Both the position numbers and the translations under genes were made by a program. Below are positions 1,941 to 58,469 of a stretch of DNA of 64,000 nucleotides, piece by piece; within the stretch, counting starts at the first letter, position 1; every line of letters starts with the position of its first letter. Source of the DNA: Paenibacillus dendritiformis (GTDB lineage Bacteria > Bacillota > Bacilli > Paenibacillales > Paenibacillaceae); contig NZ_OX216966.1 of the NCBI RefSeq assembly GCF_945605565.1, positions 3,154,001-3,218,000 on the forward strand. Direction: 5' to 3'. The notes beneath the pieces were generated by a model, which was given only the letters and a program-made list of their open reading frames with translations, made no database searches and was not told where the DNA came from.

Positions 1941-1972
1941 CCTCAAAAAGCACATTTTTTTGAACAACCTCG
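1941..1972 (-). repeat. Dispersed intergenic repeat, copy A (upstream of cheB)
   Basis: Read on the minus strand this is CGAGGTTGTTCAAAAAAATG followed by TGCTTTTTGAGG. It shares the AGGTTGTTCAAAA core with copies near 18.0, 21.07 and 58.46 kb. It lies in the 79-bp gap between flhG and cheB, just before the cheB ribosome binding site. Confidence 0.55.
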
Positions 1973-1992
1973 ATAAGGGAGCGTGATGGAAT

Positions 1993-3333
1993 GTGACAAC
2001 CAAGAAAATACTTGTCGTAGACGATTCGGCCTTCATGCGCGCCATTATATCGGATTTGATTTCACGCGAATCGACCTTTGAGGTGATAGGCACAGCCCGG
2101 GATGGAGAAGAAGCTGTGCGCAAGGTGAAAGAGCTCCTGCCGGACGCGGTTACGTTGGACGTCGAGATGCCCGTCCAGAATGGCTTGCAGGCCCTTCAGC
2201 AAATTATGGCTCAGTGCCCGACGCCGGTCATTATGCTCTCAAGCTCGACCGAAGACGGGCGTTCCGAGACGTTGACGGCATTGGAATTGGGTGCGATCGA
2301 CTTCGTATGCAAGCCGTCTCCCACGGGCGGAGCAGGCACGATCGAAGAAGTGGGACAGATGCTGGTAGACAAGCTTCATGCAGCTATCGCCTCTGCGGAA
2401 CGCAGACGGCAGATGGAACGGCTGAAGCTTCTAATCGGTTCTGGCGACGATAGCCCGGACACTCGCCGGACGGCAGAGCCGGCCGCGCCGCCGCCAGCCC
2501 AGGCTCACCTCACAGCGGAGCCGCTGCGGCGCGGGCGCACGAACGGTACGCCGCCTGCGGCGGACGGCAAGCAGACGCGGCGAAGAGGGGAATCGCCGCA
2601 GCCCCTGCCGTCCGTGGCGCCGTCCGCGGCGGCGAGAGGCAGCCGGCCGAAGCCGGCTCCTCCCGCAGAGCCGGGCAGAGCTGCCGGCGGCCCTTCCGTT
2701 CACGGCGCGGGCGGCGGTTCCGCCAAGGCGGCAGATCCGGAACGGGCTGTGCGGTTCCGGCATATTGTCGCCATCGGGACCTCCACAGGCGGTCCCCGGG
2801 CACTCAAGACGCTGCTGTCCGCGCTGCCGCATCATCTGCCGGCGCCTGTGCTCATCGTTCAGCATATGCCGCCGAACTTCACCCATTCGCTGGCGGAACG
2901 GCTGGATAGCTACAGCGAGCTGAAGGTGAAGGAAGCCGAGGATGGAGAGGTGCTCATGAGCGGAACGGCTTATATTGCGCCCGGCGGCCTTCACATGACG
3001 GCCGTGGCCCGTCCGGACGGCACGTATGCCATTGCCTTGAACCGGACGGACCCCGTATCCGGGCACCGGCCTTCCGTGGATCGGCTGTTCGAGTCACTGC
3101 TCCCTTTGCGGCAGCTCAAGCGCCATGCCGTGATCTTGACCGGAATGGGCAGCGACGGGGCCAAAATGATGCAGCGCCTGGCCGAGGACGGCGCCGCCTC
3201 GACCTTCGCGGAAAGTGAAGAGAGCTGTGTCGTATTCGGAATGCCGCGCGCAGCGATCGAACTCGGGTGTGTATCCCAGGTCATTCCATTGCAAGACATG
3301 GCTGGAGCTATCGTAACGGCTACGTCGGTGTAG
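1993..3333 (+). CDS. cheB: Chemotaxis response regulator / protein-glutamate methylesterase CheB
   Basis: Demethylates and deamidates chemoreceptors when phosphorylated by CheA. Residues 1-125 are a receiver domain with DD at 10-11 and the phosphoacceptor D56 (DAVTLDVEMP). Residues ~250-446 are the methylesterase domain with the catalytic Ser in GTSTGG, His in QHMPPNF and Asp in GMGSDGA. Between them is an unusually long (~110 residue) Pro/Ala/Arg/Gly-rich linker, making the protein 446 residues against roughly 350 in typical CheB. The start is GTG preceded by AAGGGAGCGTGATGGAAT. A dispersed repeat lies immediately upstream. Cytoplasmic, acting at receptor arrays. Confidence 0.95.
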   Translation: MTTKKILVVDDSAFMRAIISDLISRESTFEVIGTARDGEEAVRKVKELLPDAVTLDVEMPVQNGLQALQQIMAQCPTPVIMLSSSTEDGRSETLTALELGAIDFVCKPSPTGGAGTIEEVGQMLVDKLHAAIASAERRRQMERLKLLIGSGDDSPDTRRTAEPAAPPPAQAHLTAEPLRRGRTNGTPPAADGKQTRRRGESPQPLPSVAPSAAARGSRPKPAPPAEPGRAAGGPSVHGAGGGSAKAADPERAVRFRHIVAIGTSTGGPRALKTLLSALPHHLPAPVLIVQHMPPNFTHSLAERLDSYSELKVKEAEDGEVLMSGTAYIAPGGLHMTAVARPDGTYAIALNRTDPVSGHRPSVDRLFESLLPLRQLKRHAVILTGMGSDGAKMMQRLAEDGAASTFAESEESCVVFGMPRAAIELGCVSQVIPLQDMAGAIVTATSV

Positions 3334-3352
3334 CGTGAAGCTGTGCATGAGT

Positions 3353-3389
3353 GTATGTTCAAGAAGGCATAACTTCTTGAACTGCCTCT
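3353..3389 (-). repeat. Dispersed intergenic repeat, copy B (perfect hairpin upstream of cheA)
   Basis: GTTCAAGAAG (3357-3366) and CTTCTTGAAC (3373-3382) form a perfect 10-bp stem around a 6-nt loop. On the minus strand it begins AGAGGCAGTTCAAGAAG and ends TTGAACATAC, the same ends as copy C at 18.0 kb. No T-run follows, so it does not look like an intrinsic terminator. Confidence 0.65.
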
Positions 3390-3411
3390 ATATCGGAAAG
3401 GGGGGGCGAAC

Positions 3412-5508
3412 ATGGATCTGAATCAGTATTTATCCATGTTTATTGACGAAGCGAACGACCATTTGCAAGCATTGAACGAGCATATGCTGGAACTGGAGAA
3501 CAGTCCGGACGATGTCGGCATTGTCCAGATCATTTTCCGTTCGGCACACACCTTGAAAGGCATGTCGGCAACGATGGGGTTTGAAGATCTCGCATCGTTG
3601 ACCCACCAGATGGAAAATGTGCTGGATATGATTCGCAACCATCAACTGAAAATGGACGAATTCATATTCGATACGCTGTTCCGCAGTCTTGATTCGCTGG
3701 AAGCGATGGTGGCGGACATTACGCAAGGCGGCGAAGGAAAAGCAGATGTGACGCAAATACTGGCCGCCTTGAAGTCGATCGAGACGGGAGAATACCGCAC
3801 TGCCTCTTCGCAGGAGAAGGAGGAAGCGGGCGGTGGCGAGGAGGCGTCCGGCGAGACGCTGGATGAATTCCAGCGCAGCATCCTGGAGCAATCGCTGGAA
3901 GCCGGGATGAACGTCTATCATCTGCGCATCCGACTGCGGGACGATTGCGTATTGAAGGCGGTACGCGCCTATATGGTATTCCAGGTGCTCGGCCAGCATG
4001 GGGAAGTGGTCAAGTCTGCTCCGCCGGCACAGGATATCGAGCAGGACAAATTCGACTCCGAGTTCACCGTATTTTTCGTCAGCACGACCGAGCAAGGCGA
4101 ACTGGAACGCGAAATCAACCAAGTATCCGAGCTCGAATCCATCACACTTGTCTCGATGAGCGCCGACGATATTCGCGAGTGGAACCGCAATGTGGAAGGC
4201 GTCATGAAGGCGGCCCAGGAGACGGCAGCCGCGGCAGCGGCTCCGGAAGCGGCACAAGCGAGCTCAGCCCCGGCGCAGGCGGCGCCGAAGCCGGCCGCGG
4301 CCAAATCGCCGGAGGCGCCTCGCGCAGGCGCGGGGAATGGAGCCAAGCCCGTTCAGAGCCGGACGATTCGCGTAGATATCGAGCGTCTTGATGTATTGAT
4401 GAATCTATTGAGCGAGATGCTCATTGACCGGGTGCGGCTGGAACAAATCGCGGGCGAATTGAAGACAACGGAATTGACGGAGACGGTCGAGCATCTGGTC
4501 CGGGTCAGCTCCGACCTGCAGAACATTGTCCTGAAGATGCGCATGGTTCCGGTCGATACCGTGTTCAGCCGCTTCCCGCGCATGGTGCGCGACTTGGCCA
4601 AATCGCTGGATAAGAAGATCGATTTCATCATAACCGGTGCGGAAACCGAGCTGGATCGTACCGTCATTGATGAAATCGGAGACCCGCTCGTCCACCTGCT
4701 CCGGAACGCGGTCGACCATGGCGTCGAGCCGGTGGCGGAGCGCTTGGAGAAGGGCAAGCCGGAGACGGGAACGGTACATCTTCGCGCCTATCACAGCGGC
4801 AACCATGTCTTCATCGAGATTGAGGAGGACGGGCATGGCATTGACCGGGACAAGGTGTTGAACAAAGCGATCAAGAACGGGGTCGTCACCCAAGACAAGG
4901 CCGCTTCGATGAGCGACGAGCAAGTGTATCAGCTTCTGTTCTCCTCGGGCTTCAGCACGGCCGAGAAAATATCGGACGTGTCGGGACGCGGGGTCGGGCT
5001 CGATGTCGTCAAGTCCAAGATTACGGCGCTCGGCGGCCATGTCGTCGTCGAATCGCAGTTCGGGCAAGGGACGAAGTTCATCGTCCAGCTTCCGCTTACG
5101 CTGTCCATCATGTCAGCGATGCTGTTCCGGCTGGGCGAGGAGAAATACGCGATTCCGCTGACATCCATTGTCGAGACCGGTCTCGTTACGAAGGACAAAA
5201 TCCGGCGCGTCCATGGCGGCATCCGCATGGTCGATTACCGGGACAGCGTCATTCCGCTGCTCTCGCTCAGCGCCCTGTTCGATTGCGAAGGGTACTCTGA
5301 TTTCGACGAAGACGAAGTGGAGATTATCATCATCAGCAAGGGAGATCGGCTCGCCGCGCTCGCCGTCCAGGAATTCATCGGGCAGAGCGAGATTGTGCTC
5401 AAGCCGCTCGGCAACTATTTGAAGAACATCCCGGGCATCTCGGGCGCGACCATCCTCGGCGATGGCCAGGTGGCGCTCATTGTCGATACGAATGCGTTAT
5501 TGAAATAA
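3412..5508 (+). CDS. cheA: Chemotaxis histidine kinase CheA
   Basis: Central kinase of the chemotaxis array; it phosphorylates CheY and CheB. The 698 residues show P1 with the phospho-His H46 in SAHTLKGM, a P2 response-regulator-binding region (~155-265), an Ala/Pro linker (~275-315), the P3 dimerisation helices, the P4 ATPase with LLRNAVDHG (N box), EDGHGID (G1) and GRGVGLDVV (G2), and the C-terminal P5 CheW-like domain. ATG start after AAAGGGGGGGCGAAC. All catalytic motifs look intact. Confidence 0.97.
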   Translation: MDLNQYLSMFIDEANDHLQALNEHMLELENSPDDVGIVQIIFRSAHTLKGMSATMGFEDLASLTHQMENVLDMIRNHQLKMDEFIFDTLFRSLDSLEAMVADITQGGEGKADVTQILAALKSIETGEYRTASSQEKEEAGGGEEASGETLDEFQRSILEQSLEAGMNVYHLRIRLRDDCVLKAVRAYMVFQVLGQHGEVVKSAPPAQDIEQDKFDSEFTVFFVSTTEQGELEREINQVSELESITLVSMSADDIREWNRNVEGVMKAAQETAAAAAAPEAAQASSAPAQAAPKPAAAKSPEAPRAGAGNGAKPVQSRTIRVDIERLDVLMNLLSEMLIDRVRLEQIAGELKTTELTETVEHLVRVSSDLQNIVLKMRMVPVDTVFSRFPRMVRDLAKSLDKKIDFIITGAETELDRTVIDEIGDPLVHLLRNAVDHGVEPVAERLEKGKPETGTVHLRAYHSGNHVFIEIEEDGHGIDRDKVLNKAIKNGVVTQDKAASMSDEQVYQLLFSSGFSTAEKISDVSGRGVGLDVVKSKITALGGHVVVESQFGQGTKFIVQLPLTLSIMSAMLFRLGEEKYAIPLTSIVETGLVTKDKIRRVHGGIRMVDYRDSVIPLLSLSALFDCEGYSDFDEDEVEIIIISKGDRLAALAVQEFIGQSEIVLKPLGNYLKNIPGISGATILGDGQVALIVDTNALLK

Positions 5509-5541
5509 CCGCTACATATCAAGATATGAGGAGGAACGGTC

Positions 5542-6003
5542 ATGGCAGAGGATATGAAAGTCGTGGTCTTTATGTTGGGGACGGAAGAATATGGCGTCGA
5601 AGTGGAGAAAGTGAAGACGATTGAACGGATGATGCCGATTACGCGCGTGCCGAAAACCTATGATTTCATCAAAGGAGTCATCAATCTGCGCGGGGTCGTC
5701 ATTCCGGTCATCGATCTGCGCGGCCGCTTCGGCATGCCGGAGGCGGAAGCGACCGATCAGACACGGGTTATCATTGTGACGCACGGCGATCTGGAAGTCG
5801 GCTTCATCGTCGACAATGCGAGCGACGTCATGGACATCAATGAGGAGCACATCGAGCCGGCACCGGAAGTCGTGGGCGGCATTCAAGCGAAATATTTGCG
5901 CGGCGTAGCGAAAATCGGGGAAGACCGCCTTCTCATCATGCTGAATCTGGCGGAAGTGCTCAACAAAAGCGAAATTATTAAGCTTGAGCAGCTAGAGGCA
6001 TAG
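5542..6003 (+). CDS. cheW: Chemotaxis coupling protein CheW
   Basis: A 153-residue adaptor that links chemoreceptors to CheA. It consists of one CheW domain with the typical TRVPKTYDFIKGVINLRG and VIPVIDLRGRFG segments. ATG start with AGGAGGAACG upstream. It lies 33 bp after cheA and 4 bp before cheC, in the standard Gram-positive order cheA-cheW-cheC-cheD. Confidence 0.96.
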   Translation: MAEDMKVVVFMLGTEEYGVEVEKVKTIERMMPITRVPKTYDFIKGVINLRGVVIPVIDLRGRFGMPEAEATDQTRVIIVTHGDLEVGFIVDNASDVMDINEEHIEPAPEVVGGIQAKYLRGVAKIGEDRLLIMLNLAEVLNKSEIIKLEQLEA

Positions 6004-6007
6004 CCCA

Positions 6008-6631
6008 GTGCATCTGTATGAACGTCTGGGCGCCTTCAAGATGGATGTCCTGAAGGAAGTGGGGAACATCGGCGCCGGCAATGCCGCCACGGCGCTGTCC
6101 CGCTTGCTGAACCGCACCATCGATATGAAAGTGCCCCAAGTGCGCCTGATGCCGTTTGATTGTATCGCCGATGAGGTCGGCGGGCCGGAGCAGGTGGTTA
6201 TCGCGATTTATTTCCGGGTTGAGGGCGATGCGCCCGGTCATCTTTTCTTCATGTTCGATCCGGAGGCGGCCAAGATGCTGCTCTCCTATCTGGCAGCGGT
6301 GCCGTTGGAGGAAGGGGAATGGTTCTCGGAGATGGAGATGTCGGCCTTGGCGGAAATCGGCAATATTTTGGCCGGTTCGTACTTGTCCTCGCTGGCAGAC
6401 TTCACCCGCATGACGATGTCTCCGACGGTGCCGCAGCTGGCGATTGACATGGCGGGAGCGGTGTTGAATTACGGCATACTTCAATACGGGGAAATGGGAG
6501 ACAGCGCGCTGCTCATCGACACGAAGTTTTTGGAAGGCTGCGACGAAGTGCAGGGCACCTTTTTCCTGATTCCCGATCCGGACTCTTTTTCTAAAATTTT
6601 CGCTGCCTTGGGAGTGCCTTTACATGATTGA
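6008..6631 (+). CDS. cheC: CheY-P phosphatase CheC
   Basis: Removes phosphate from CheY-P in the Gram-positive adaptation system and interacts with CheD. The 207 residues contain both copies of the CheC active-site pattern: LKEVGNIGAGNAATAL near residue 16 and LAEIGNILAGSYLSSL near residue 115, each with the Glu and Asn used for catalysis. The GTG start at 6008 follows cheW by 4 bp, and the 3' end overlaps cheD by 8 bp, suggesting translational coupling. Confidence 0.94.
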   Translation: MHLYERLGAFKMDVLKEVGNIGAGNAATALSRLLNRTIDMKVPQVRLMPFDCIADEVGGPEQVVIAIYFRVEGDAPGHLFFMFDPEAAKMLLSYLAAVPLEEGEWFSEMEMSALAEIGNILAGSYLSSLADFTRMTMSPTVPQLAIDMAGAVLNYGILQYGEMGDSALLIDTKFLEGCDEVQGTFFLIPDPDSFSKIFAALGVPLHD

Positions 6632-7118
6632 AGAGTCCACGATTGTTAAAGTAGGTATGGCCGATTTGAATGTATGCCGATTCGGATCCATACGCACGAC
6701 CGGGCTAGGTTCCTGTGTCGGATTTACGTTGTACGACCCCGTCGCCAAGATTGCGGGCATGGCTCATATTATGCTGCCTTCCTCGTCCATCGCGCGGGAA
6801 GGTACGGTCAATATCGCCAAATATGCCGATACGGCCGTGCCCGAACTGCTGCGGCGCATGGAAGCCCAAGGGGCCAGGCAGGGGAGGCTGCAGGCCAAAA
6901 TGGCGGGCGGAGCCCAGATGTTCGCTTTTGCCTCCAACAATGAAATGATGCGAATTGGTCCGCGCAATGTGGAAATTTGCAAGCAGCTGCTGGATCAGCA
7001 TGGCATTCCGTTGTTGGCGGAGGATACGGGCGGATCATACGGGCGAACGATTGAATTGCGCTGTGATGACGGCGTGCTCCACATTCGAAGCGTACAACAG
7101 GGAGTAAAGGAAATATGA
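6624..7118 (+). CDS. cheD: Chemoreceptor glutamine deamidase CheD
   Basis: Deamidates receptor glutamines and stimulates CheC. The 164-residue protein has the catalytic Cys in GLGSCVGFTLYD and the His in GMAHIMLPSS. Its start lies inside the end of cheC, and its own stop overlaps the ATG of the next gene (ATGA at 7115-7118), so the three genes are tightly coupled. Confidence 0.95.
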   Translation: MIEESTIVKVGMADLNVCRFGSIRTTGLGSCVGFTLYDPVAKIAGMAHIMLPSSSIAREGTVNIAKYADTAVPELLRRMEAQGARQGRLQAKMAGGAQMFAFASNNEMMRIGPRNVEICKQLLDQHGIPLLAEDTGGSYGRTIELRCDDGVLHIRSVQQGVKEI

Positions 7119-7552
7119 CGATGAGAGGAACTATTCGTTGGAATTTCATAGTCGGAATCGTCGGATTTGTCATCACTTTATTACTTTCTTGGAGCAGCAA
7201 TTTGTGGACAACCAGTCTGATTCGCGCGGCGATCGCATTTGCCGCCTGGTTCGCGCTCGGCTTCGCGATCCGCTTCGCGGCGGGCATGCTGGGCGCGCCT
7301 GACGCCCAGGCGGCATCATCGGCCCCGAACGGAGAGGACAAAGGGAATCTGGTCGATATGACGACGCCGGATGAGAGCGATATGCTCCACGAGATGCTGC
7401 GCACGATGTCCAATGAGGAGAAGCCAACCGAGCGGGAAGACGATGACGGACAAGCATTTCAACCGTTAAACCCGCCCAAGCTCGTGACCAAAGAACCGCT
7501 GCCGGATGCGGGACAATTGGCACAAGCTGTTCGTCACCTGACACAAAAGTAA
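7115..7552 (+). CDS. Small membrane protein between cheD and sigD, unknown function
   Basis: A 145-residue protein I do not recognise as a named family. Two hydrophobic segments (about residues 10-24 and 30-56) suggest two membrane helices, followed by an acidic cytoplasm-like tail rich in Glu/Asp (MLHEMLRTMSNEEKPTERED). It overlaps cheD by 4 bp (ATGA) and is followed 15 bp later by sigD, so it is part of the fla/che operon and may matter for motility; that is inference from position only. In B. subtilis cheD is directly followed by sigD, so this gene is an addition. Confidence 0.8.
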   Translation: MTMRGTIRWNFIVGIVGFVITLLLSWSSNLWTTSLIRAAIAFAAWFALGFAIRFAAGMLGAPDAQAASSAPNGEDKGNLVDMTTPDESDMLHEMLRTMSNEEKPTEREDDDGQAFQPLNPPKLVTKEPLPDAGQLAQAVRHLTQK

Positions 7553-7567
7553 GGAGGCTGACTGTCG

Positions 7568-8353
7568 GTGAGCGTTCAGAAAATCAAACCGTGCTCTCAT
7601 TATGAGCTTTGGGAACAGTGGAAGGATAATGGGGATGTCGAGGCGAAGAAACAACTTATCGAAATTCACTTGCCCATCGTCGAATTCGTAGCGAACAAGC
7701 TCGCCGCCGGGCTGCCTCGCAACGTCAGCAAGGACGATCTATCCAGCCACGGCGTCATGGGCCTGATCGACGCGATCGAGAAGTTCGACTACCAGCGCGG
7801 CCTCCAGTTCGAGACATACGCCTCCTGGCGCGTACGGGGAGCTATTCTGGACGGACTGCGGCAGGGAGATTGGGTGCCGCGTTCGGTGCGGGAGAAGGCG
7901 AAGAAAATCGAAGAAGCCTACCAGCAGCTTGAACAGCGGTATTTGCGGTCCGTATCGGACAGTGAAATGAGCGAGTATTTGAATGTGAGCGAGCAAGAAT
8001 TCCAGGGGATGCTGCATGACGTGAACATTATGTCCGTCTGCTCATTGGAGGACCCGATCCGTGAGGACGAATCCGAGACGCGCCTGTCCTTATTGGTGGA
8101 TGAAAAGGCGAAAAACCCGGAAAGCAAAGTGAATGAGCACTACTTAAAGGAATCGCTTATCTATGGAATCGAGAAGCTGACCGAGAAAGAGCGGATGGTC
8201 ATCTCGCTCTTCTATTACGAGGATCTGTCCCTGAGCGAGATCGCCGAAGTGATGTCGCTGTCTCCTTCCCGTATCTCCCAACTTCATTCCAAAGCGATTT
8301 TGCGTCTCCGAACGGCATTGGAAAAACATAAGAGCATGCTGCTGGAAGCGTAA
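7568..8353 (+). CDS. sigD: RNA polymerase sigma factor SigD (FliA/WhiG family)
   Basis: The 261-residue alternative sigma factor for late flagellar, chemotaxis and autolysin genes. It shows region 2 (VEFVANKLAAGLPRNV, KFDYQRGLQFETYASWRVRG), a short region 3 and region 4 with the helix-turn-helix SLSEIAEVMSLSPSRISQLH near the C-terminus. GTG start with AAGGAGGCTGACTGTCG upstream. It sits at the end of the che cluster as in Bacillus. Confidence 0.96.
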   Translation: MSVQKIKPCSHYELWEQWKDNGDVEAKKQLIEIHLPIVEFVANKLAAGLPRNVSKDDLSSHGVMGLIDAIEKFDYQRGLQFETYASWRVRGAILDGLRQGDWVPRSVREKAKKIEEAYQQLEQRYLRSVSDSEMSEYLNVSEQEFQGMLHDVNIMSVCSLEDPIREDESETRLSLLVDEKAKNPESKVNEHYLKESLIYGIEKLTEKERMVISLFYYEDLSLSEIAEVMSLSPSRISQLHSKAILRLRTALEKHKSMLLEA

Positions 8354-8360
8354 ATGACAA

Positions 8361-8387
8361 CTAGAGGGGCACGAAGGCAAACCGATA
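8361..8387 (+). promoter_or_regulatory. Candidate sigma-D promoter for fapA
   Basis: TAGA (8361-8364), a 15-nt spacer and ACCGATAA (8380-8387) resemble the sigma-D pattern TAAA-N15-GCCGATAA with one mismatch in each element. It starts 8 bp after the sigD stop. Transcription would begin near 8394, leaving the AAGGGGG ribosome binding site of fapA intact. By-eye match only. Confidence 0.4.
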
Positions 8388-8408
8388 AAACCGAAAGGGG
8401 GATTTTTC

Positions 8409-9815: not shown

Positions 9816-9888
9816 GGGGGTAGCTTGGGAGCGTGTAACGCGGCCGCTTCGTCATGCGTTTCGTCTCGTCTTGCTCGTGGCCGCTCAT

Positions 9889-9969
9889 GGCTGGCGTGAT
9901 GGTTGGCGGAAGACTAGCGTGAAGACTAGCGTGATGACTGGCGTGGTGACTAATGTGGTGACTAGGGCC
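9889..9969. repeat. 12-bp degenerate tandem repeat
   Basis: Units in order are GGCTGGCGTGAT, GGTTGGCGGAA (11 bp), GACTAGCGTGAA, GACTAGCGTGAT, GACTGGCGTGGT, GACTAATGTGGT and a partial GACTAGGGCC. A 12-bp period means four codons in any frame, yet no convincing gene covers it. It lies in the 506-bp non-coding stretch 9816-10321 between fapA and the next gene. Confidence 0.85.
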
Positions 9970-9992
9970 AAAATCCTGTCGAGCGAGAAGCC

Positions 9993-10180
9993 AATCCTGC
10001 ATTTGTACAGCAATTTACGCCGATGAAACGGAGTTTCGAAGAAATTGCTGCTATTTTACATCTTTTTTACTCAAATTCTCTAGTTTATAAGCGATACGGT
10101 GAGAATTCCTGCATTTTTGCAGGAATCCCGGCGCACTGTCCGTGCGTTCCCCAATAAACTGCAGTTTTGCAGGATTTTTG
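9993..10180. repeat. Cluster of CCTGCA/TGCAGG hairpins in non-coding DNA
   Basis: Four related motifs occur in under 200 bp. CAGCAATTT (10008-10016) pairs with AAATTGCTG (10042-10050), with an inner GAAAC/GTTTC stem. ATTCCTGCA (10105-10113) and TGCAGGAAT (10118-10126) form a perfect 9-bp stem around TTTT. CTGCA/TGCAG forms a third hairpin near 10155-10170, followed by GATTTTTG, which could terminate transcription. The look is that of a repetitive extragenic palindrome rather than a gene. The remainder of 9816-10321 shows no coding sequence I can support. Confidence 0.6.
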
Positions 10181-17993: not shown

Positions 17994-18060
17994 AGAGGTT
18001 GTTCAAAACGTCCGTTCTTCGAGTTCGGTGCTGAAAACTGGTCTTTTTGAACATACGTAA
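17994..18060 (+). repeat. Dispersed intergenic repeat, copy C (upstream of rasP)
   Basis: Begins AGAGGTTGTTCAAAACGTCC and ends TTTTTGAACATACGTAATAG. TGTTCAAAA (18000-18008) and TTTTGAACA (18045-18053) are inverted ends. The internal CGGTGCTGAAAACTGG (18026-18041) is almost the exact reverse complement of the middle of copy E near 26.16 kb. Confidence 0.7.
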
Positions 18061-20897: not shown

Positions 20898-20993
20898 GCA
20901 GCGATAGACCCGTTCGCCGCAACCCTCGTCATCCGATGGGGGCCTGGCGGACGGCCGTGCCCGGCCGAGCGGGCTGCGGGACGAATGACAAGG

Positions 20994-21062
20994 AAGCTTC
21001 CTCCGCGGGAACATCCAACGGAACACCGGACGATGGCTCGAGTGCAGGAAGCTTTTCTTTTT
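20994..21062 (+). terminator. Probable terminator after proS
   Basis: AAGCTTCCT (20994-21002) pairs with AGGAAGCTT (21046-21054), followed by TTCTTTTT. The 43-nt loop is long, so this is less certain than the other terminators. Confidence 0.5.
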
Positions 21063-21100
21063 CAAGAGGTAGTTCAAAAAGTCCGCTTTTGATCACGATG
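21063..21100 (+). repeat. Dispersed intergenic repeat, copy D (upstream of polC)
   Basis: Contains AGAGGTAGTTCAAAAAGTCC then GCTTTTGATCACGATG. It shares the left end of copies A, C and F; a clear right end with TTGAACATAC is missing, so it may be truncated. Confidence 0.6.
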
Positions 21101-26149: not shown

Positions 26150-26209
26150 GTTCAAAGAGGCCGGTTTTCAGCACCGGCAAGACTGCTTGAACTTGCATCC
26201 TTTTTGAAC
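26150..26209 (-). repeat. Dispersed intergenic repeat, copy E (upstream of nusA)
   Basis: GTTCAAAGAGGCC then GGTTTTCAGCACCGG (26150-26177) matches the reverse complement of copy C at most positions, and CTTTTTGAACTG (26200-26210) marks the other end. CCGGT/ACCGG forms an inner stem. It sits inside the rimP-nusA gap, so it would be transcribed in the operon mRNA. Confidence 0.65.
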
Positions 26210-48434: not shown

Positions 48435-48456
48435 GGATCGATGGAGGTGAGCGCAT

Positions 48457-51051: not shown

Positions 51052-51081
51052 GGCGGATGACAAACCATATAAGCATTAATG

Positions 51082-51107
51082 AAAAGACGCTGCGGCGTCT
51101 TTTTTTT
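51082..51107 (+). terminator. Terminator after spoIIIE
   Basis: GACGC (51086-51090), TGCG, GCGTC (51095-51099), flanked by AAAA and eight T residues. Confidence 0.88.
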
Positions 51108-51213
51108 GCAGCCAACGGAGAAATCCAATGAAATTTCTTGCCTGAACGGATGGGATACTGGGCAAAGATTGCTCTTATGTAGAGTCACCCGCAGCAACGC
51201 CGAAGTGGCAAGG

Positions 51214-51244
51214 TGAATAGAAAATGCTTGGTTTTCTCATAATA
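51214..51244 (+). promoter_or_regulatory. Candidate forespore sigma-G promoter of sleB
   Basis: TGAATA (51214-51219), 18-nt spacer, CATAATA (51238-51244). This matches the sigma-G/sigma-F pattern TGAATA-N17/18-CATACTA at all but one position and sits ~50 bp before a spore-cortex hydrolase gene. Confidence 0.65.
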
Positions 51245-51292
51245 AAGTTGCCAATCCTGTCAAATTCACAAGAGAGAGGTAGACGTTAGGCC

Positions 51293-52057
51293 ATGAGAAA
51301 ACACATGATTTGGATTACGATGTGTATGGTATTCGTTCTGTTCGGCGCTTACCAATACAAGCATATGACGGAAAACGCGGCCACCTTCAGCGGCGCGACG
51401 CTAACGTACGGTTCCCAGGGGCAAGACGTAAGGGAGCTTCAGGGCCGCCTGAAATTTCTCGGCTTCTATTACGGCAAGGTTGATGGCGTATTCGGCAGCA
51501 AGACTCAGGGCTCCGTCGAATGGTTCCAATCGGAATTCGGCATGCCGGTGGACGGCGTTGTCGGATCAAAAACAAGAAACATGCTGGTCAAGGCGACGAA
51601 GGACTGGAAGCCGGAGGCGCCGGCGCCGAGCGGCACAGCAGGCGGAGGCAAGCCCACTGGCGGCAAGCCAAGCAATATTAGCGGCTCCAATGCGATGGGA
51701 TTGTCAGAGAATGATTTGAAGCTGATGGCCAATGCGGTGTACGGTGAAGCCCGGGGGGAGCCGTATGAAGGCCAGGTGGCGGTTGCTGCGGTTATTTTGA
51801 ATCGGGTGAAATCCCCTAGCTTCCCGAATACCGCATCCGGCGTCATCTTCCAACCGGGAGCCTTCACCGCCGTAGCTGACGGTCAGATCTGGCTTGAGCC
51901 GAATGAGCGGGCGCGTCAGGCGGTCCAAGATGCTCTGAACGGCTGGGACCCGTCGGGAGGTTGCTTGTACTACTTCAATCCGGAGACCGCGACGTCCAAA
52001 TGGATCTGGACACGGCCGCAGGTGAAGACGATTGGAAAACATATCTTCTGTATGTAA
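51293..52057 (+). CDS. sleB: Spore cortex-lytic enzyme SleB-type hydrolase
   Basis: Made in the forespore and used to degrade cortex peptidoglycan at germination. The 254 residues show an N-terminal signal/anchor (MIWITMCMVFVLFGAYQY), a peptidoglycan-binding domain (DVRELQGRLKFLGFYYGKVD to ~100), a Gly/Pro/Ala linker (~105-135) and the hydrolase_2 catalytic domain with the Glu in NAVYGEARGEPYEGQVAVAA and CLYYFNP. Length matches SleB. Not at this place in B. subtilis. Sigma-G-like promoter upstream. Confidence 0.88.
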   Translation: MRKHMIWITMCMVFVLFGAYQYKHMTENAATFSGATLTYGSQGQDVRELQGRLKFLGFYYGKVDGVFGSKTQGSVEWFQSEFGMPVDGVVGSKTRNMLVKATKDWKPEAPAPSGTAGGGKPTGGKPSNISGSNAMGLSENDLKLMANAVYGEARGEPYEGQVAVAAVILNRVKSPSFPNTASGVIFQPGAFTAVADGQIWLEPNERARQAVQDALNGWDPSGGCLYYFNPETATSKWIWTRPQVKTIGKHIFCM

Positions 52058-52066
52058 TCCATGACG

Positions 52067-52103
52067 AAGAAGCAATGGTCTGACTGGCCGATTGCTTCTT
52101 TTG
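52067..52103 (+). terminator. Terminator after sleB
   Basis: AAGAAGCAAT (52067-52076) pairs with ATTGCTTCTT (52091-52100), then TTG; inner bases also pair partly. Confidence 0.75.
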
Positions 52104-52154
52104 TTCAAATATAAGCAAGTACGGGATCCCGTCTATACTTGACTTATTTTCACC

Positions 52155-52196
52155 CAGAAACGCTTTCCGTCCTTGGAGGGGATGAAGGCGTTTCTG
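52155..52196 (+). other. Second hairpin in the sleB-ymfF gap
   Basis: CAGAAACGC (52155-52163) pairs with GCGTTTCTG (52188-52196), enclosing further partial pairing. The following CTTGTCTCG is T-poor. Its role is unknown; it could be a terminator or leader structure for ymfF. Confidence 0.5.
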
Positions 52197-52326
52197 CTTG
52201 TCTCGCCGCTGCCCACCATTTATTTTAGGACATGCTCATGTAAAACAGGTATACATCGGGTACGTATCGAATATAACATGCATGACATCAGCCGTGCATC
52301 GTACACGGAAGAAAAGGGGTAAGTAC

Positions 52327-53610
52327 ATGGAGAAGCAACCGACGTTCGAACGAGGAACGGTCAATGGGATTCGCATTCACGTCATGCCGACGAAGCGGTT
52401 CAAGACCTATGCGATCGCCGTCTACATGGGCGCGCCGCTGCAGGAAGACACCGTGACTCCGCTGGCGCTGACGCCATTCGTGCTGCGGCGGGGGACGGAA
52501 GCGTACCCGGAGACGATCCGGTTCCGCGAGAGACTGGATGAACTGTATGGAGCCGGGTTCGGCTTCGATATTTATAAGCGGGGCGATTATCAAATTGTGC
52601 AGTTCCGCATGGATGTCATCAACGACGCTTTTGTGCAATCGGCCGATTCCTTGCTGGAGAAGGCATTTGAATTTCTGGGAGGATGCATCACAGCGCCGGT
52701 GACCCCGGACGGCGTCTTTCGCTCTAAATATGTAAAGGAAGAAAAAGAAACGCTGACGCAGCGGATTGAAGCGATCGTGAATGACAAAATCCGTTATGCC
52801 GCCGAGCGCTGCATCGAAGAGATGTGCAAGGAGGAGCCGTACCGTCTCCATGCGCTTGGCAACCGCCGCGAGTTGGAGGGCATCGATGCCAGTTCGCTGT
52901 ACCGCCATTACCAGGAATGGCTGGAGCACTCGGCCATCGATGTCTATGTCATCGGCGATACGAGTCTGGAGGAGGTCGAACGGCTCGTGAAGGATTCATT
53001 CCGTATCAACCGCGCAGGCGAGACACCTTATGCCCGTTCGATTCCGGTGCCGCGCACGGGAGAGCCGAATACGGTCATCGAGAGGCTGGAAGTGACCCAG
53101 GGCAAGCTGAATCTCGGTCTCCGCACCACGATAACCTACGCCGACGACGCGTATCCGGCCGCCCTCCTGTTCAACGGAGTGCTTGGCGGATACCCGCATT
53201 CGAAGCTGTTTATTCATGTCAGGGAAAAGAACAGTCTCGCTTACTACGCATCGTCGCGGTTGGATGGCCATAAAGGGATTTGCGCCATTCAATCGGGAAT
53301 TGAATTCCAGAACTACGAAAAAGCGAAGCAGATTATTTTGGAGCAGATCGAAGCGATGAAAGCAGGACGCATCGATGCGAAGGAGCTGCAGCAGACGAAG
53401 GCGATGATCGCCAATCAGCTGCGGGAGATCGGGGATTCGGCCTTCGAAATGATCGGGTTCGATTTCAACCGCGTGCTGTCCGGCAAGGAGCGGACGACAT
53501 CGCAATTGATCGCCGCCACGGAGGAGATGGAGGCGTCAGCCATCCAAGCCGCCGCCGAGACGTTTCATGTCGACACGATTTATTTCTTGCGCAACCGGGA
53601 GGAGGTATAA
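52327..53610 (+). CDS. ymfF: M16-family peptidase-like protein YmfF, zinc motif missing
   Basis: A 427-residue M16 (insulinase-like) protein. The fold is recognisable (SLAYYASSRLDGHKGICAI in the second half), but the HxxEH zinc motif is absent: the corresponding place reads TPFVLRRGTEAYPE. It is thus likely the non-catalytic partner of the next gene, as in paired M16 proteases. ATG 52327 with AAAAGGGGTAAGTAC upstream. It is followed 3 bp later by ymfH. Confidence 0.85.
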   Translation: MEKQPTFERGTVNGIRIHVMPTKRFKTYAIAVYMGAPLQEDTVTPLALTPFVLRRGTEAYPETIRFRERLDELYGAGFGFDIYKRGDYQIVQFRMDVINDAFVQSADSLLEKAFEFLGGCITAPVTPDGVFRSKYVKEEKETLTQRIEAIVNDKIRYAAERCIEEMCKEEPYRLHALGNRRELEGIDASSLYRHYQEWLEHSAIDVYVIGDTSLEEVERLVKDSFRINRAGETPYARSIPVPRTGEPNTVIERLEVTQGKLNLGLRTTITYADDAYPAALLFNGVLGGYPHSKLFIHVREKNSLAYYASSRLDGHKGICAIQSGIEFQNYEKAKQIILEQIEAMKAGRIDAKELQQTKAMIANQLREIGDSAFEMIGFDFNRVLSGKERTTSQLIAATEEMEASAIQAAAETFHVDTIYFLRNREEV

Positions 53611-53613
53611 GGC

Positions 53614-54897
53614 ATGGAACAACGCCGCTATTCCCAACTACAGGAGACGCTCTATTACGAGCGGATGGACAATGGGCTGGACGTCTATGTGCTGCCGAAG
53701 CCCGGCTTCCAGAAGACATACGCGTCCTTTTCCACCAAGTATGGGTCGATTGACAATCACTTTCGGGTAGAAGGGCAGGATGCCGTTAAGGTTCCTGACG
53801 GGATTGCCCATTTCCTCGAGCATAAAATGTTCGAGGAGCCGGAAGGCGACATCTTCGCCACCTTCGCGGAGCAGGGAGCTTCGGCCAATGCGTTCACGAC
53901 ATTCGATCGGACCGTCTACTTATTCTCTTCCACCAGCAATATCGAGAAAAATGTGGAAACGCTTGTCGATTTTGTGCAGCGTCCTTATTTTACGGATGAA
54001 AATGTGGAGAAGGAAAAGGGCATTATCGCGCAGGAAATCAATATGTACCGCGATAATCCAACCTGGCGCGTCTACTTCGGACTCATCGAAGCGATGTATC
54101 AGGTCCATCCCGTCCATATCGATATCGCCGGCACGGTAGAATCGATCGGCACGATAACGAAGGATACGCTGTATACATGCTACCATACGTTCTACCACCC
54201 GACCAATATGCTGCTCTTTATCGTCGGGGGCGTTGATCCGGAGCGGATGATGGCCTTAATCCGCGAGAACCAGGCCCGCAAATCATTCGAGCCGCAGGGC
54301 AAGATCGAACGTATTTTTGACAGCGAGCCGGAGACGGTGCGCGAAGCCCGCAAAGTAGCGAAGCTGCCGGTCTCGTTGCCGCGCTGCTACTTCGGATGCA
54401 AGGAACCGAAGCCAGGTCTGAACGGTCGTGCCTTGCTGGAATATGAAATCGCGACGCGCATCATGATGGATCTGCTGCTCGGCTCTAGCTCGGCCTTGAA
54501 CCAGATATTATACGAGGAAGGGCTGACGACAGATTCGTTCGGGAGCGAGTTCAACTGCAGCCCGGATTACGCTTTCTCGATTATGGGAGGAGAGACGAAG
54601 GATCCGGACCGTCTGGTGGAGCGGGTGCAGGAGCTGGTGGATGATGCGAAGAAGACGGGATTTGAGCCGGCTTCCTTCGAGCGCATCCGCAGCAAAGCGA
54701 TCGGCGCCTACTTGCGTATGCTGAATTCGCCAGAGACCATTGCGAATGAATTCACGAAGTTTAAGTTCCGGGAGGCGGATTTATTTGATATACTTTCCGT
54801 ATACGAATCGCTGACACTGGAACAGATTCACCAACGGCTGCAGGATCATTTCGATTGGAACCGTCTGGCGGTATCGATTGTCGAGAAGCCGGATTGA
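53614..54897 (+). CDS. ymfH: M16-family zinc peptidase YmfH
   Basis: A 427-residue protease with the inverted zinc motif HFLEH at residues 66-70 and a later Glu in IIAQEINMYRDNPTW. It is almost the same length as YmfF and only 3 bp downstream, consistent with an active/inactive M16 pair. Its biological substrate is not established. ATG start with GGAGGTATAAGGC upstream. Confidence 0.88.
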   Translation: MEQRRYSQLQETLYYERMDNGLDVYVLPKPGFQKTYASFSTKYGSIDNHFRVEGQDAVKVPDGIAHFLEHKMFEEPEGDIFATFAEQGASANAFTTFDRTVYLFSSTSNIEKNVETLVDFVQRPYFTDENVEKEKGIIAQEINMYRDNPTWRVYFGLIEAMYQVHPVHIDIAGTVESIGTITKDTLYTCYHTFYHPTNMLLFIVGGVDPERMMALIRENQARKSFEPQGKIERIFDSEPETVREARKVAKLPVSLPRCYFGCKEPKPGLNGRALLEYEIATRIMMDLLLGSSSALNQILYEEGLTTDSFGSEFNCSPDYAFSIMGGETKDPDRLVERVQELVDDAKKTGFEPASFERIRSKAIGAYLRMLNSPETIANEFTKFKFREADLFDILSVYESLTLEQIHQRLQDHFDWNRLAVSIVEKPD

Positions 54898-54942
54898 AGC
54901 TTGAATACACTTCGAAAGGCATTGCTCTTCGAAGGTGAGGAG

Positions 54943-54976
54943 GAAGGCGTGCCTGGCAGGCGCGCCTTCTGTTCTG
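54943..54976 (+). terminator. Hairpin after ymfH
   Basis: GAAGGCGTGCC pairs with GGCGCGCCTTC (one G-T pair) around TGGCA, followed by TGTTCTG, a weak T-run. Confidence 0.5.
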
Positions 54977-55012
54977 ATTGCCGGTCGGCGGGAACAAAGG
55001 AGTGCATGACAG

Positions 55013-55759
55013 ATGAAAGCATTGGCAGACACCTCGGTGCTCATTACCGGAGCAAGCCGCGGCATAGGCGCCGCGATTGCGCACAGGTTCGCCTCCGTCG
55101 GAATGAAGGTTATCATCCATTACTTGAATTCGCATGAAGCCGCCAACGAAGTCGCGAGAGCCTGTCTTGCATACGGTGGCGAGGCCATTACGATTCGCGC
55201 CGATCTTCGTTCGGCCGAACAGATCGACCGCATGAAATCCAAGCTGGACGAGTTGGGCTTTACGCCCGACATTTTGGTGAACAATGCGGGAACCGCCTAT
55301 TACGGCCTGTTCACCGATGTGACGGAGGAAGAATGGGACGATTGCATGAACATCAATCTGAAGGGAATGTTCCTCTGCACCCAGCGGTTCGCCCCGCATA
55401 TGATCTCGCAAAAGTACGGCCGCATTATTAACGTCTCCTCGGTATGGGGAATAACGGGCGCCTCGTGCGAAGTGATGTATTCAACCGCCAAAGGAGGCGT
55501 CAATGCCTTCACGAAATCATTGGCCAAGGAGTTGGCTCCGTCCGGCGTGACCGTGAACGCCGTCGCACCCGGGGCCGTGGATACCGATATGATGAAGCAT
55601 TTGGATACGTCGGAACGAAGCGCTTTGGAGGAAGATATTCCTGCAGGCCGGTTAGGCACGCCGGACGAAATTGCCTCGCTGGTTTATTTTCTGGCTTTGC
55701 CGGAATCCGGCTACATTACGGGACAAGTCATCAGCCCAAACGGGGGCTGGCAGACGTAA
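55013..55759 (+). CDS. ymfI: SDR-family reductase YmfI (EF-P modification reductase)
   Basis: A 248-residue short-chain dehydrogenase: LITGASRGIGAAIAHRFAS (NADPH binding), VNNAGTAYYG, Ser in INVSSVWG and the catalytic Tyr/Lys in YSTAKGG. By position after ymfF/ymfH it matches B. subtilis YmfI, reported to reduce the 5-aminopentanone group on elongation factor P. A FabG-type ketoacyl reductase role cannot be excluded by sequence alone. ATG 55013 with AAAGGAGTG 8 nt upstream. Confidence 0.82.
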   Translation: MKALADTSVLITGASRGIGAAIAHRFASVGMKVIIHYLNSHEAANEVARACLAYGGEAITIRADLRSAEQIDRMKSKLDELGFTPDILVNNAGTAYYGLFTDVTEEEWDDCMNINLKGMFLCTQRFAPHMISQKYGRIINVSSVWGITGASCEVMYSTAKGGVNAFTKSLAKELAPSGVTVNAVAPGAVDTDMMKHLDTSERSALEEDIPAGRLGTPDEIASLVYFLALPESGYITGQVISPNGGWQT

Positions 55760-55860
55760 CCCGCCCTGCAGCCAGCTTGCTCCATGCATAATTCATGCCC
55801 CGGAGGACCATATTACGACTGTTGACGCATTATTTTAATTAGCCACAAGGAGGCGTTCTC

Positions 55861-56115
55861 ATGTCATCTGTACTGAAAAATTTCGACACGTGGAAAAAGT
55901 TTCTCGGCGAGCGCGTCAAGCAGGCGAAAGGACTGGGCATGACCGAAGACACCATCTCTAACCTGGCCTACGAGATCGGTTCGTTTCTGGAGGAGAAGGT
56001 CGACCCGCAAAGTCAGGAAAACCGGGCGCTGAAGGAATTGTGGGAAGTCGGCACCGAGCAGGAGCGGAAGGTGCTGGCAAGCTTGATGGTCAAATTGGCA
56101 GAACGCCATAGTTAA
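55861..56115 (+). CDS. ymfJ: YmfJ family protein (DUF3243)
   Basis: An 84-residue soluble helical protein, starting MSSVLKNFDTWKKFLGERVK, which matches the small DUF3243 family found after ymfI. Function unknown. ATG start with ACAAGGAGGCGTTCTC. Followed by a terminator. Confidence 0.85.
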   Translation: MSSVLKNFDTWKKFLGERVKQAKGLGMTEDTISNLAYEIGSFLEEKVDPQSQENRALKELWEVGTEQERKVLASLMVKLAERHS

Positions 56116-56133
56116 AAAGGACTTTTGAATAAA

Positions 56134-56167
56134 GGAAGGAAGTTCTGCAAAGAGCTTTCTTTCTTTT
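56134..56167 (+). terminator. Terminator after ymfJ
   Basis: GGAAGGAAGTTCT (56134-56146), GCAA, AGAGCTTTCTTTC (56151-56163) pair over 13 positions including three G-T pairs, followed by TTTT. Confidence 0.75.
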
Positions 56168-56220
56168 CCATCTCAAAAAAATATGATCGGGAATACATGT
56201 CATATAAGCTGACAATCTGC

Positions 56221-56264
56221 TATAATGGATATGTCCGCCAAGCGGTAATTTGTGACCGCTTTTT
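56221..56264 (+). promoter_or_regulatory. Promoter -10 followed by a short terminator-like hairpin upstream of ymfK
   Basis: TATAAT (56221-56226) has no clear -35. Just after the expected start, AAGCGGT (56240-56246) pairs with ACCGCTT (56255-56261), followed by TTTC. This could be a leader attenuator or a second terminator for ymfJ. Confidence 0.4.
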
Positions 56265-56353
56265 CTTATTTGTTCCGTGAAGCCAGGTGGAATTTGCGGG
56301 CCGAGTATTGTAGAATGAAAACGGCGGAACTGTAACTGCGGACGAGGTGCGTC

Positions 56354-57118
56354 ATGGAGTACAAACAGTGGTATATGGAATATAAAATACATAAAAACCG
56401 CCCGGGATTGCTGGGAGACATCGCGTCGCTGCTCGGCATGCTGGAGGTCAACATTTTGACGATTAACGGGGTCGAAGATAAGACCAGAGGCATGCTCCTT
56501 CAGACCGATGACGACGAGAAAATCGAAGTCATGGGCAAGATGTTGCAAAAAGTAGACAACATTACGGTGTCCGCGCTGCGGCAGCCCCGGCTGGTAGATA
56601 TTTTGGCCGTGCGCCATGGCCGCTATATCGAGCGCGATTCGGACGATCGGAAGACGTTCCGTTTTACCCGGGACGAACTTGGCTTGCTCGTTGATTTCCT
56701 TGGCGAAATATTCAAGCGCGAAGGCCATCAGGTGATCGGCGTGCGCGGCATGCCGCGGGTCGGCAAGACGGAGTCCATCATTGCGGGAAGCGTCTGCTCC
56801 ATGAAGCGCTGGTCCTTCGTCTCCTCGACGCTTCTGCGCCAGACGGTGCGGAGCCAGATGTCCGAGGACGAGATGAATGTCAACAATATTTTCATTATAG
56901 ACGGCATCGTGAGCACCATTCGGTCCAATGAACGCCACGCGGCCTTGCTGCAGGAAATACTCGGGATGCCGTCGACGAAGGTCATTGAGCACCCGGATAT
57001 ATTCGTGAAGGAAACCCGCTACGATTATGATTTCTTTGATTATATCATTGAACTGCGGAATAGCCCCGACGAAGAGATTACATATGAATCTTTTACGGCG
57101 AATTATTATGATTTTTAA
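56354..57118 (+). CDS. ymfK: YmfK family protein (DUF3388), ACT domain plus P-loop-like motif
   Basis: A 254-residue protein with an N-terminal ACT-like domain (residues ~5-75, NRPGLLGDIASLLGMLEVNI) and a C-terminal region containing GMPRVGKTES (~residue 137), a match to the Walker A pattern GxxxxGKT, and a later hydrophobic-acidic stretch (NNIFIIDGIVST) that could serve as Walker B. ACT domains commonly sense amino acids. The family has no established function that I know. ATG start with GACGAGGTGCGTC. It precedes the RodZ-like gene by 50 bp. Confidence 0.85.
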   Translation: MEYKQWYMEYKIHKNRPGLLGDIASLLGMLEVNILTINGVEDKTRGMLLQTDDDEKIEVMGKMLQKVDNITVSALRQPRLVDILAVRHGRYIERDSDDRKTFRFTRDELGLLVDFLGEIFKREGHQVIGVRGMPRVGKTESIIAGSVCSMKRWSFVSSTLLRQTVRSQMSEDEMNVNNIFIIDGIVSTIRSNERHAALLQEILGMPSTKVIEHPDIFVKETRYDYDFFDYIIELRNSPDEEITYESFTANYYDF

Positions 57119-57168
57119 ATAGGATGAAAGCACCAACCGGAGAGAGATTTTGTGCAGGAGGTGAAAAT

Positions 57169-58080
57169 GTGTCGGAATTGGGGCAGTTGTTGAAAAAGGC
57201 CAGGCTTGAGAAGGGCCTCACGCTGGATGACGTTCAAGAAGCGACCAAAATCCGCAAACGTTATCTGGAAGCGATAGAAGAAGGGGATTACAAAGTGCTG
57301 CCGGGCTCGTTCTACGTGCGCGCCTTCATTAAGACGTACGCAGAGACGGTGGGCTTGAATCCGGATGAGCTCCTGCAATTTTATCGCAATGATATTCCCG
57401 CTCCGGAAGTGGAGACGACGGTAGAGCCAATGATTCGGAAGAAGCGCCGTGCGGTCCATTCGGACAAGTTCGGGCGTTGGGCGACGACGATACTGATGTG
57501 GTCGTTTTTGGCCCTGATCATTGTGATTGTTTATTTTTATGTGGTGAACAATAAGACACCGGATAATCAGACATCTGACAATTCGGGAATTATAAGCGGC
57601 ACGACAGGGGAGAAAACACCGGACACCGGCGCCCAGACTCCGTCCCCGGGCAGCGGCAATGGAACCAAGGAGCCGGACACGACGGTGCCGCCGGTTGAAC
57701 CGGAGAAGGAGCCTATCGTCGCGCGCACGTCTCCGAACGGATACGAATATGCCGTCGCTTCGCCGGAAGGTGGCAAGGCGGAAGCCGAGATTGCCGCTAC
57801 AGGCAGAAGCTGGATCTCGGTGCGGGAAGGCAGCGGCCAAGGCAAGATGTTGTTCGAGGGCACCGTTGATGCGGATTTCAAGCAGACCTTCGAAATCCCG
57901 GAAGCGGGATTGTATTTCCGATCCGGGAGAACGGACAATACGTCCATTACCGTGTTTGGCCAATCGCTGGATGACGGTAATTCCGCCAATAACCCAACCA
58001 ATGTCATCGTCAAGGTCGTCTCCTATGAAGAAGCGGAGAAGCTTGCGGCAGAGGGCGGAGGCGCTTCCGGAGGCCAATAA
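57169..58080 (+). CDS. ymfM: RodZ/YmfM-like membrane protein with helix-turn-helix
   Basis: A 303-residue protein with a cytoplasmic Xre-like helix-turn-helix (residues ~1-70, LGQLLKKARLEKGLTLDDVQ), one membrane helix (~107-128, MWSFLALIIVIVYFYVV), a Thr/Pro/Gly-rich linker and an extracytoplasmic DUF4115-like domain (~200-290). This is the RodZ layout; RodZ links the MreB cytoskeleton to wall synthesis. GTG 57169 with AGGAGGTG 5 nt upstream is preferred. Position matches B. subtilis ymfM. Confidence 0.87.
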   Translation: MSELGQLLKKARLEKGLTLDDVQEATKIRKRYLEAIEEGDYKVLPGSFYVRAFIKTYAETVGLNPDELLQFYRNDIPAPEVETTVEPMIRKKRRAVHSDKFGRWATTILMWSFLALIIVIVYFYVVNNKTPDNQTSDNSGIISGTTGEKTPDTGAQTPSPGSGNGTKEPDTTVPPVEPEKEPIVARTSPNGYEYAVASPEGGKAEAEIAATGRSWISVREGSGQGKMLFEGTVDADFKQTFEIPEAGLYFRSGRTDNTSITVFGQSLDDGNSANNPTNVIVKVVSYEEAEKLAAEGGGASGGQ

Positions 58081-58219
58081 ATAGCGTAACCGGCTTGAAT
58101 AGAAGCCCATTCGAAGAGAGGGACGATCCGGCTGCATGCTCTATCGCATAATCGCACCTGAACGGGAGAGAATAATGTTACGGCGTACGTTTAATCTCTC
58201 CGGAAGTGAGGTGTCGAAC

Positions 58220-58384
58220 ATGGCAGTAAGTTGGATCGTCACAGGCTTGGGCGTCATCGTCAGCTTGTTGGGCTATTACTTGACTCCGAGCGCATGGGGC
58301 TACGGAATTTTGGGATTCGGGCTGGCACATATTGTGCTTGGCGTGCTGGATATGTTCCGGGCGCCTTCACGCAGCCGTTACTGA
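58220..58384 (+). CDS. 54-residue membrane protein, unknown function
   Basis: A small protein with two predicted membrane helices (VSWIVTGLGVIVSLLGYYL and GILGFGLAHIVLGVLDMF) joined by a short SerAlaTrp turn and ending in a basic tail (RAPSRSRY). The ATG at 58220 has AAGTGAGGTG 6 nt upstream, which supports real translation; longer in-frame starts lack a ribosome binding site. I do not recognise a family. It lies between the RodZ-like gene and yajQ. Confidence 0.7.
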   Translation: MAVSWIVTGLGVIVSLLGYYLTPSAWGYGILGFGLAHIVLGVLDMFRAPSRSRY

Positions 58385-58457
58385 ATGCCGTTAACGGCAC
58401 AGGCATTCCTTTATGCTGACCAGCGAAGGAGTGCCTTTGTGCTGTACATATGGAAGC

Positions 58458-58469
58458 AGAGGTTGTTCA
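58458..58469 (+). repeat. Possible fragment of the dispersed repeat, copy F (upstream of yajQ)
   Basis: AGAGGTTGTTCA is identical to the left end of copy C, but the sequence then diverges. Twelve bases alone could be chance. Confidence 0.35.

Follow-up and report, generated by a model that had tools for sequence, protein, structure and literature searches.

The window analyzed here is a 64,000-nucleotide stretch of Paenibacillus dendritiformis DNA (positions 3154001-3218000 of contig NZ_OX216966.1, within a 6.72-Mb genome), and its subject is a family of short repeats of which the window holds six copies, A to F. It is highly probable that these repeats belong to a non-autonomous mobile element family of Paenibacillus and its relatives that resembles miniature inverted-repeat transposable elements (MITEs), and that the window copies are its eroded remains. 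The element inserts into A/T-rich intergenic DNA with a direct duplication of 4-5 bp, and the corresponding sites are empty in relatives. Inserted copies can lose their middle and keep little beyond the two ends as a hairpin, and the window copies are of this kind. Among the properties by which MITEs are recognized, a short, multi-copy body without a transposase gene, terminal inverted repeats, target duplication and empty sites were observed. The six stretches had been pointed out by a model that saw only the letters (the sequence-only reading), and all were found where it had placed them. The repetition exceeds chance: AGAGGYNGTTCAA, with at most one mismatch, occurs five times in the window (at 1960 and 3377 on the minus strand and at 17994, 21065 and 58458 on the plus strand), compared with 0.33 matches expected from the mean of 100 dinucleotide shuffles, none of which reached five.

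A full copy of the element is about 180 bp long, with 174 bp up to a right GAAC that is followed by a 6-nt tip. The inverted ends of full copies are GAGGTTGTTCAAAAAG and GTGCGTGTTCAAAAAG, and the 10-bp sequence GTTCAAAAAG stands at both ends inside imperfect inverted repeats of about 38 nt. A longer unit, AGAGGTTGTTCAAAAAGTCCGCTTTTGATCACGAAG ... CTTCTCGGTGCTGAAAACCGRCCTTTTTGAACACGYAC, was read from the left-end sites of the genome. The sequence-only reading had proposed a search of the genome and its relatives for further copies, and these proved numerous. AGAGGYNGTTCAAAA occurs 17 times in the 6.72-Mb genome and the reversed pattern does not occur there. BLAST with one copy gave 61 pieces, of which 54 merged into 40 places and seven, opposite-arm matches within places already counted, were dropped. 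In public genomes a pattern scan recorded at least 118 further stretches, with Paenibacillus and Cohnella in the 80 titles among the matches listed. In a class-wide sample, 25 of 299 genomes had a match with three or fewer mismatches, 19 of them in the window's own family and six in one other, and a reversed-control pattern matched none of the 299. Fully open reading frames occurred in 15 of 57 copies, compared with 15.7 in shuffles, so that coding capacity was not above chance and a peptide encoded by the element was rejected. Because the element has no gene of its own, an enzyme supplied from elsewhere in the cell presumably moves it.

We examined insertion in 105 copies from other genomes, which were chosen by an exact left end; eroded copies are therefore absent from this sample, and the left half of the element seems more conserved in it than it really is. 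Copies without a recognized right end are excluded as well, and a mis-joined 395-nt case was removed from the flank and duplication statistics. The 4 bp before AGAGG were the same as the 4 bp after the right tip in 55 of the 105 copies (shuffle mean 8.7; largest of 1000 shuffles, 18). When the first A was counted as part of the target, an exact 5-bp duplication was found in 52 of 105 (shuffle mean 7.9, largest 17), and an A followed in 52 of the 55 cases with a 4-bp duplication. The flanks of these 55 cases showed C before in 35 and G after in 36, which makes the palindrome C-TWWWA-G, and 5 bp is therefore favored. The target is thus A/T-rich, CTWWWAG, in surroundings that are T-rich. The duplicated core varies (TTAT, TTTA, TTTT, TATT, TTAA and others); the pentamer is TWWWA-like and variable, with TTTAT standing at one empty site.

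This empty site is at the L022 locus, where genome G008 is continuous and reads CACTTTATGG. The insertion is lacking also in G006, G010 and G018 and is present in G000, G014 and G001. A second locus, L198, shows the element at full length in G000 and G008, partly deleted in G006, reduced to its ends in G014 and G001 and to scraps in G010; none was seen in G018. A chance likeness of terminators and A/T-rich leaders would be in keeping with the T-rich flanks around the copies, but it is scarcely credible against the excess over shuffles, the copies throughout the genome, the stretches in other genomes and the empty sites.

The window copies fall into the same series of states. Copy A (1941-1972, minus strand), a relic hairpin upstream of cheB, is present in six of eight aligned genomes; it is absent in G013, and G018 carries a different mini copy. 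Copy B (3353-3389, minus strand), upstream of cheA, consists of the terminal inverted repeats alone, a perfect 10-bp hairpin. Its site holds about 230 nt in G010, partly deleted forms in G008, G014 and G001, the 37-nt hairpin in G000 and G006, and nothing in G013 and G018. Copy C (17994-18060, plus strand), upstream of rasP, has kept both ends and lost most of its middle; it was found in six genomes, truncated in G010, and is absent in G018, and the site could not be extracted from G013. Copy D (21063-21100, plus strand), a left-end fragment upstream of polC and right after a conserved terminator-like hairpin, is present in five genomes and absent in G010 (with a larger deletion there), G013 and G018. 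Copy E (26150-26209, minus strand), upstream of nusA, holds the right-end region and the terminal repeats; six genomes have it, G013 lacks it, and G018 carries an independent full-length copy in the opposite orientation. Copy F (about 58458-58475, plus strand), upstream of yajQ, is two fused tips by our reading of the alignments, and it is present in all four genomes aligned, decayed in G001. From genome to genome an orthologous site can be empty, full length or eroded, which marks the window copies as old insertions eroded in place. G018 has its own, different insertions at A and E, and the same gaps were therefore hit independently. That copies A and F belong to the family is evident mainly through the sequences of relatives.

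These data agree in most points with what the sequence-only reading had described. Both orientations occur, and the near-identical middle of C and E, in complement, is a 27-nt inverted pair (18026-18052 and 26150-26176) that is 89% complementary. The downstream genes are those it had named: NCBIfam models matched CheB, CheA, the RIP metalloprotease RseP (RasP), PolC, NusA and YajQ, with both CheA models scoring under their curated cut-offs. Its account needs correction for copy D, which is a left-end fragment alone and has no right arm.

The same reading had also proposed that the element may be a structured RNA that spread into 5' leaders and may affect expression. As a cis-acting RNA kept for regulation, the repeats would be expected where they are, for all six window copies precede core genes. 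The genes identified beside them all point rightward, however, and of 12 long minus-strand open reading frames (ORFs) kept by a greedy caller, 11 overlie a plus-strand ORF by our reading of the ORF list. Nearly any gap in the window is therefore upstream of a gene, and we rejected an upstream bias as a by-product of this gene orientation. Outside the window, none of 106 copies in other genomes lies in coding DNA. When placement bias was checked, as the sequence-only reading had suggested, the 105 classified copies comprised 66 between tandem, 19 between divergent and 20 between convergent genes, and the intergenic bases of the same loci divide as 0.56, 0.26 and 0.18. Relative to the downstream gene, 37 copies were in the opposite and 29 in the same orientation. 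Among 22 copies in this genome, one fell in coding DNA and the others were nine tandem, five divergent and seven convergent; the gene caller behind these placement counts is crude. The gene context thus resembles the make-up of intergenic DNA, and the proposed spread into leaders is not supported. Selection removing insertions in genes would restrict the element to gaps, and the window copies are upstream of genes through survival between genes rather than through visible regulation.

Conservation also speaks against a regulatory RNA. Pooled over the window copies, identity to four relatives was 0.83-0.90 for the element, 0.90-0.95 for the rest of the same gaps and 0.94-0.96 for nine other gaps. 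The element thus diverges beyond its gaps in four of four relatives and shows no sign of extra constraint, with the qualification that the reference gaps contain ribosome binding sites and a conserved proS-polC motif and are not neutral. Copy C is fairly conserved (0.93-0.94), yet it is under its flanks each time, and one site ranges from 37 nt to about 230 nt. Copy D in G014 is a single case in the other direction, being identical there (1.00 versus 0.96). Folding argues in part for an RNA: for copies A, B and E the fold is clearly better than in shuffles (B with z of -4.3 and -5.9 on its two strands), for copy C weakly so (z -2.0; 5 of 200 shuffles as good), and for copy D no better (z = 0.45). 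Neither the window nor the copies gave an Rfam match, there being no gathering-level match in the window and, at the six loci with copies, three matches at E<=1 (one T-box and two weak BSnc120) that lie outside the copies. Taken together, the faster divergence and the intergenic-like placement led us to reject regulatory RNA as the main explanation, and we consider it highly improbable. The MITE-like half of the earlier proposal was borne out by the inverted ends, direct duplications, empty sites, many dispersed copies and chance-level coding capacity, and the effect on expression that it had allowed for found no support in the conservation of the window copies. By analogy with other small repeats, a passive RNA effect of the remaining hairpins, such as cutting by RNase III, is possible. 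We infer that the element has no demonstrated host function.

Next to copy D, between proS and polC, positions 20970-21062 carry a strongly conserved motif, AACATCCAACGGAACACCGGANGATGRCTCG, between inverted arms that end in a T-run; the arrangement resembles a terminator whose loop is conserved. Of 197 family genomes, 11 have the motif, each in a single copy. All 11 belong to the window's genus, of which 19 genomes were searched, and by coordinates the copy is always at the polC locus. The motif has no credible Rfam match (best E 0.37); it may act as an RNA leader of polC or as a terminator of proS.

Structure is a property of the full element as well, which folds strongly (z = -3.8). The covariation that the sequence-only reading had proposed to look for was found in the inner stems of full-length copies, where 7 of 37 pairs showed paired changes (33 cells), compared with 1-5 pairs and 1-9 cells when the partners were slid. 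Because of the strong fold and these paired changes, which would also be expected of a regulatory RNA, structure seems important for the element's own sake, whether at the RNA or the DNA level. A strong fold on a single strand and an intergenic location are likewise features of repetitive extragenic palindromic (REP)-like hairpins spread on single strands by a Y1 (RAYT) transposase. Such elements are not expected to produce direct duplications; those seen here are clear, the unit measures 180 bp and its inverted ends are long, and we regard this explanation as very improbable.

We also analyzed how the mobile element might move. Copies occur in tandem as well. In loci L025, L056, L092, L107, L108 and L112 the spacer between tandem copies is the tip plus 5 bp (for example ACGCAC-TTTAA-GAGG), and in L057, L208 and L214 it is 10 nt; the list of tandem junctions has 21 rows, some seemingly spurious. 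The array at L208:787-2230 shows the end five times, and its four junctions are spaced exactly 182 bp apart. With G as its first base and, mostly, C as its last, the element rebuilds the target at its borders, and tandem arrays would arise as each insertion restores the preferred target on both sides. Arrays with one shared core, and ends that complete the target, would also be produced by site-specific recombination at a short A/T core rather than by a DDE transposase acting on inverted ends. The empty L022 site is in line with such recombination, a mechanism that published work has suggested for bcr1 with its TTTAT motif. Within a mobile-element explanation, we see this as a serious, if doubtful, possibility. 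The core is variable, which would be unusual for a recombination core, and GTTCAAAAAG is kept at both ends and persists in very small copies, as a transposase binding site would.

Partial searches for a transposase with these ends found none, which fits recombination also. An exclusion pattern, estimated to pass only about one third of unrelated ends, matched in 51 of 197 family genomes, and 30 loci inspected over 1.5 kb on either side had no inverted partner end at insertion sequence (IS) distance. Thirty of 199 DDE_Tnp_1 matches, in six genomes, had scattered single end matches nearby and no consistent pair. The element-rich genome G056, with 64 left ends in the class-wide sample, gave no DDE_Tnp_1 match. 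Tn3 transposase gave five matches, in four of 24 genomes, none flanked by the element's ends.

Several points weigh against the mobile MITE-like family that we favor. An autonomous partner was not found in these partial searches by exclusion pattern, DDE_Tnp_1 and Tn3 only. About half of the copies have an inexact duplication, and at L022 one or two bases differ between the two flanks and the empty site, which leaves the choice between 4 and 5 bp unsettled at that locus. Presence at L022 does not track the similarity order of the genomes; excision or loss, or recombination between species, must therefore be assumed.

The length of the element varies in steps. Among 103 lengths measured to the right GAAC, 51 were 174-175, 13 were 209-217, ten were 243-254 and ten were 280-287; five were 88, three 77-84, four 170-173 and one 323, and the remainder were 195, 226 (two), 318, 358 (a tandem pair) and 395 (the mis-join). 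The steps of about 37 nt correspond to a two-hairpin module, AAGCNNATGCTTNCGAAG-TNNGTTTYCTNCGGAAAC, which occurs at up to three separate positions, inverted at the third, and replaces a few bases at each. Only L110 (323 nt), among the copies inspected, seems to hold two modules at one position. Module tallies are approximate, since the matcher counts some modules on both strands. As a free-living repeat the module was rejected: 36 matches in 197 records, mostly chosen for holding elements, were all in element context. Across the whole genome, five of seven module matches lie inside elements. The other two, module-like hairpin motifs at L200 and L202 (G000:C1:4088203 and 4081275), stand alone just upstream of genes that look, from reading the sequence, like microcompartment genes.

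The L022 insertion has modules at two positions in G014 and in G001, whereas in this genome both positions are without one, although the bases between the two positions are nearly identical in this genome and G014. This difference fits gene conversion and precise excision alike. We raise the speculation, which we think unlikely, that the module is a unit in its own right, able to move precisely into and out of fixed positions in the larger element, a parasite within a parasite, and that the larger element may rebuild its own target; rebuilding at both borders would account for the tandem arrays. If so, the family would be a natural system for watching the precise gain and loss of a hairpin module.

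Searches of plasmids and phages returned copies from Paenibacillus, a partial match in one Paenibacillus phage and, in a microvirus, a weak match of 24 nt. The element stands at 34 places or more in NZ_CP054613.1, a 2.7-Mb record of Paenibacillus cellulosilyticus labelled as a plasmid. Matches of 33-45 nt to the central hairpin of the element were found in 11 alphaproteobacterial plasmids, two of which were inspected. In these Rhizobiales plasmids (L310:401-436 and L311:401-437) the hairpins are about 90% identical to the central hairpin over about 37 nt (GGTGCTCACGTAC...GTACGCT-CGCTCC) and sit inside longer palindromes. The likeness is possibly convergence.

Although the family is spread over many genomes of Paenibacillus and also reaches a second family of the class, Rfam has no match to it. 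Annotating it would keep its remains from being misread as regulators in core-gene leaders. The graded series at one site, from a near-full element to an end hairpin, shows how palindromic leader hairpins can come from dead mobile DNA. What makes the family interesting is mainly its modules and the ends that rebuild the target, and less its placement upstream of genes; module variation and tandem arrays are directly testable in strain collections.

We compared the element with known systems. Tn3-derived miniature elements (TIMEs) have ends of about 38 nt and a 5-bp duplication, and the imperfect ends of about 38 nt and the A/T-rich 5-bp duplication seen here are alike. Tn3 ends start with GGGG, as we observed in L313, whereas the present ends start GAGG and GTGC, and Tn3 transposase was not found in 20 of the 24 genomes searched. 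The bcr1 repeat is about 155 bp long. With the other group A repeats (bcr1-bcr3) of the Bacillus cereus group, it is described as a short intergenic repeat likened to MITEs, confined to that group and linked in its mobility to a TTTAT motif. Those repeats share with ours a host among the Bacilli, copies in untranslated regions and operon gaps, and a T/A motif tied to mobility; modules at three positions are unmentioned for them in the passages used. Correia, ERIC and RUP are likewise small repeats or MITEs of intergenic DNA in other hosts. The comparisons draw on portions of PMC3446304, PMC10969869, PMC3049150 and PMC6542083, and those with bcr1-bcr3, BOX, Correia, ERIC and RUP are by description only. 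Transcribed Correia copies are cut at their ends by RNase III (PMC10969869). In RUP the ends are similar to those of an IS present in the same host (PMC3049150), whereas no such IS was found for the Paenibacillus element in the partial searches above. No published description of the element was found in the literature searched, with subscription journals mostly outside it. BOX of Streptococcus pneumoniae is described as MITE-like and modular, growing by whole modules, with terminal repeats, duplications and a predicted RNA structure, and its copies vary in module number between strains (PMC3049150). Its boxB modules stand in tandem between boxA and boxC; the modules of about 37 nt described here are found at up to three separate positions and in either orientation, without a tandem central module. 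Judged from these descriptions, the family may best be likened to a MITE with a BOX-like modular body and bcr1-like borders.

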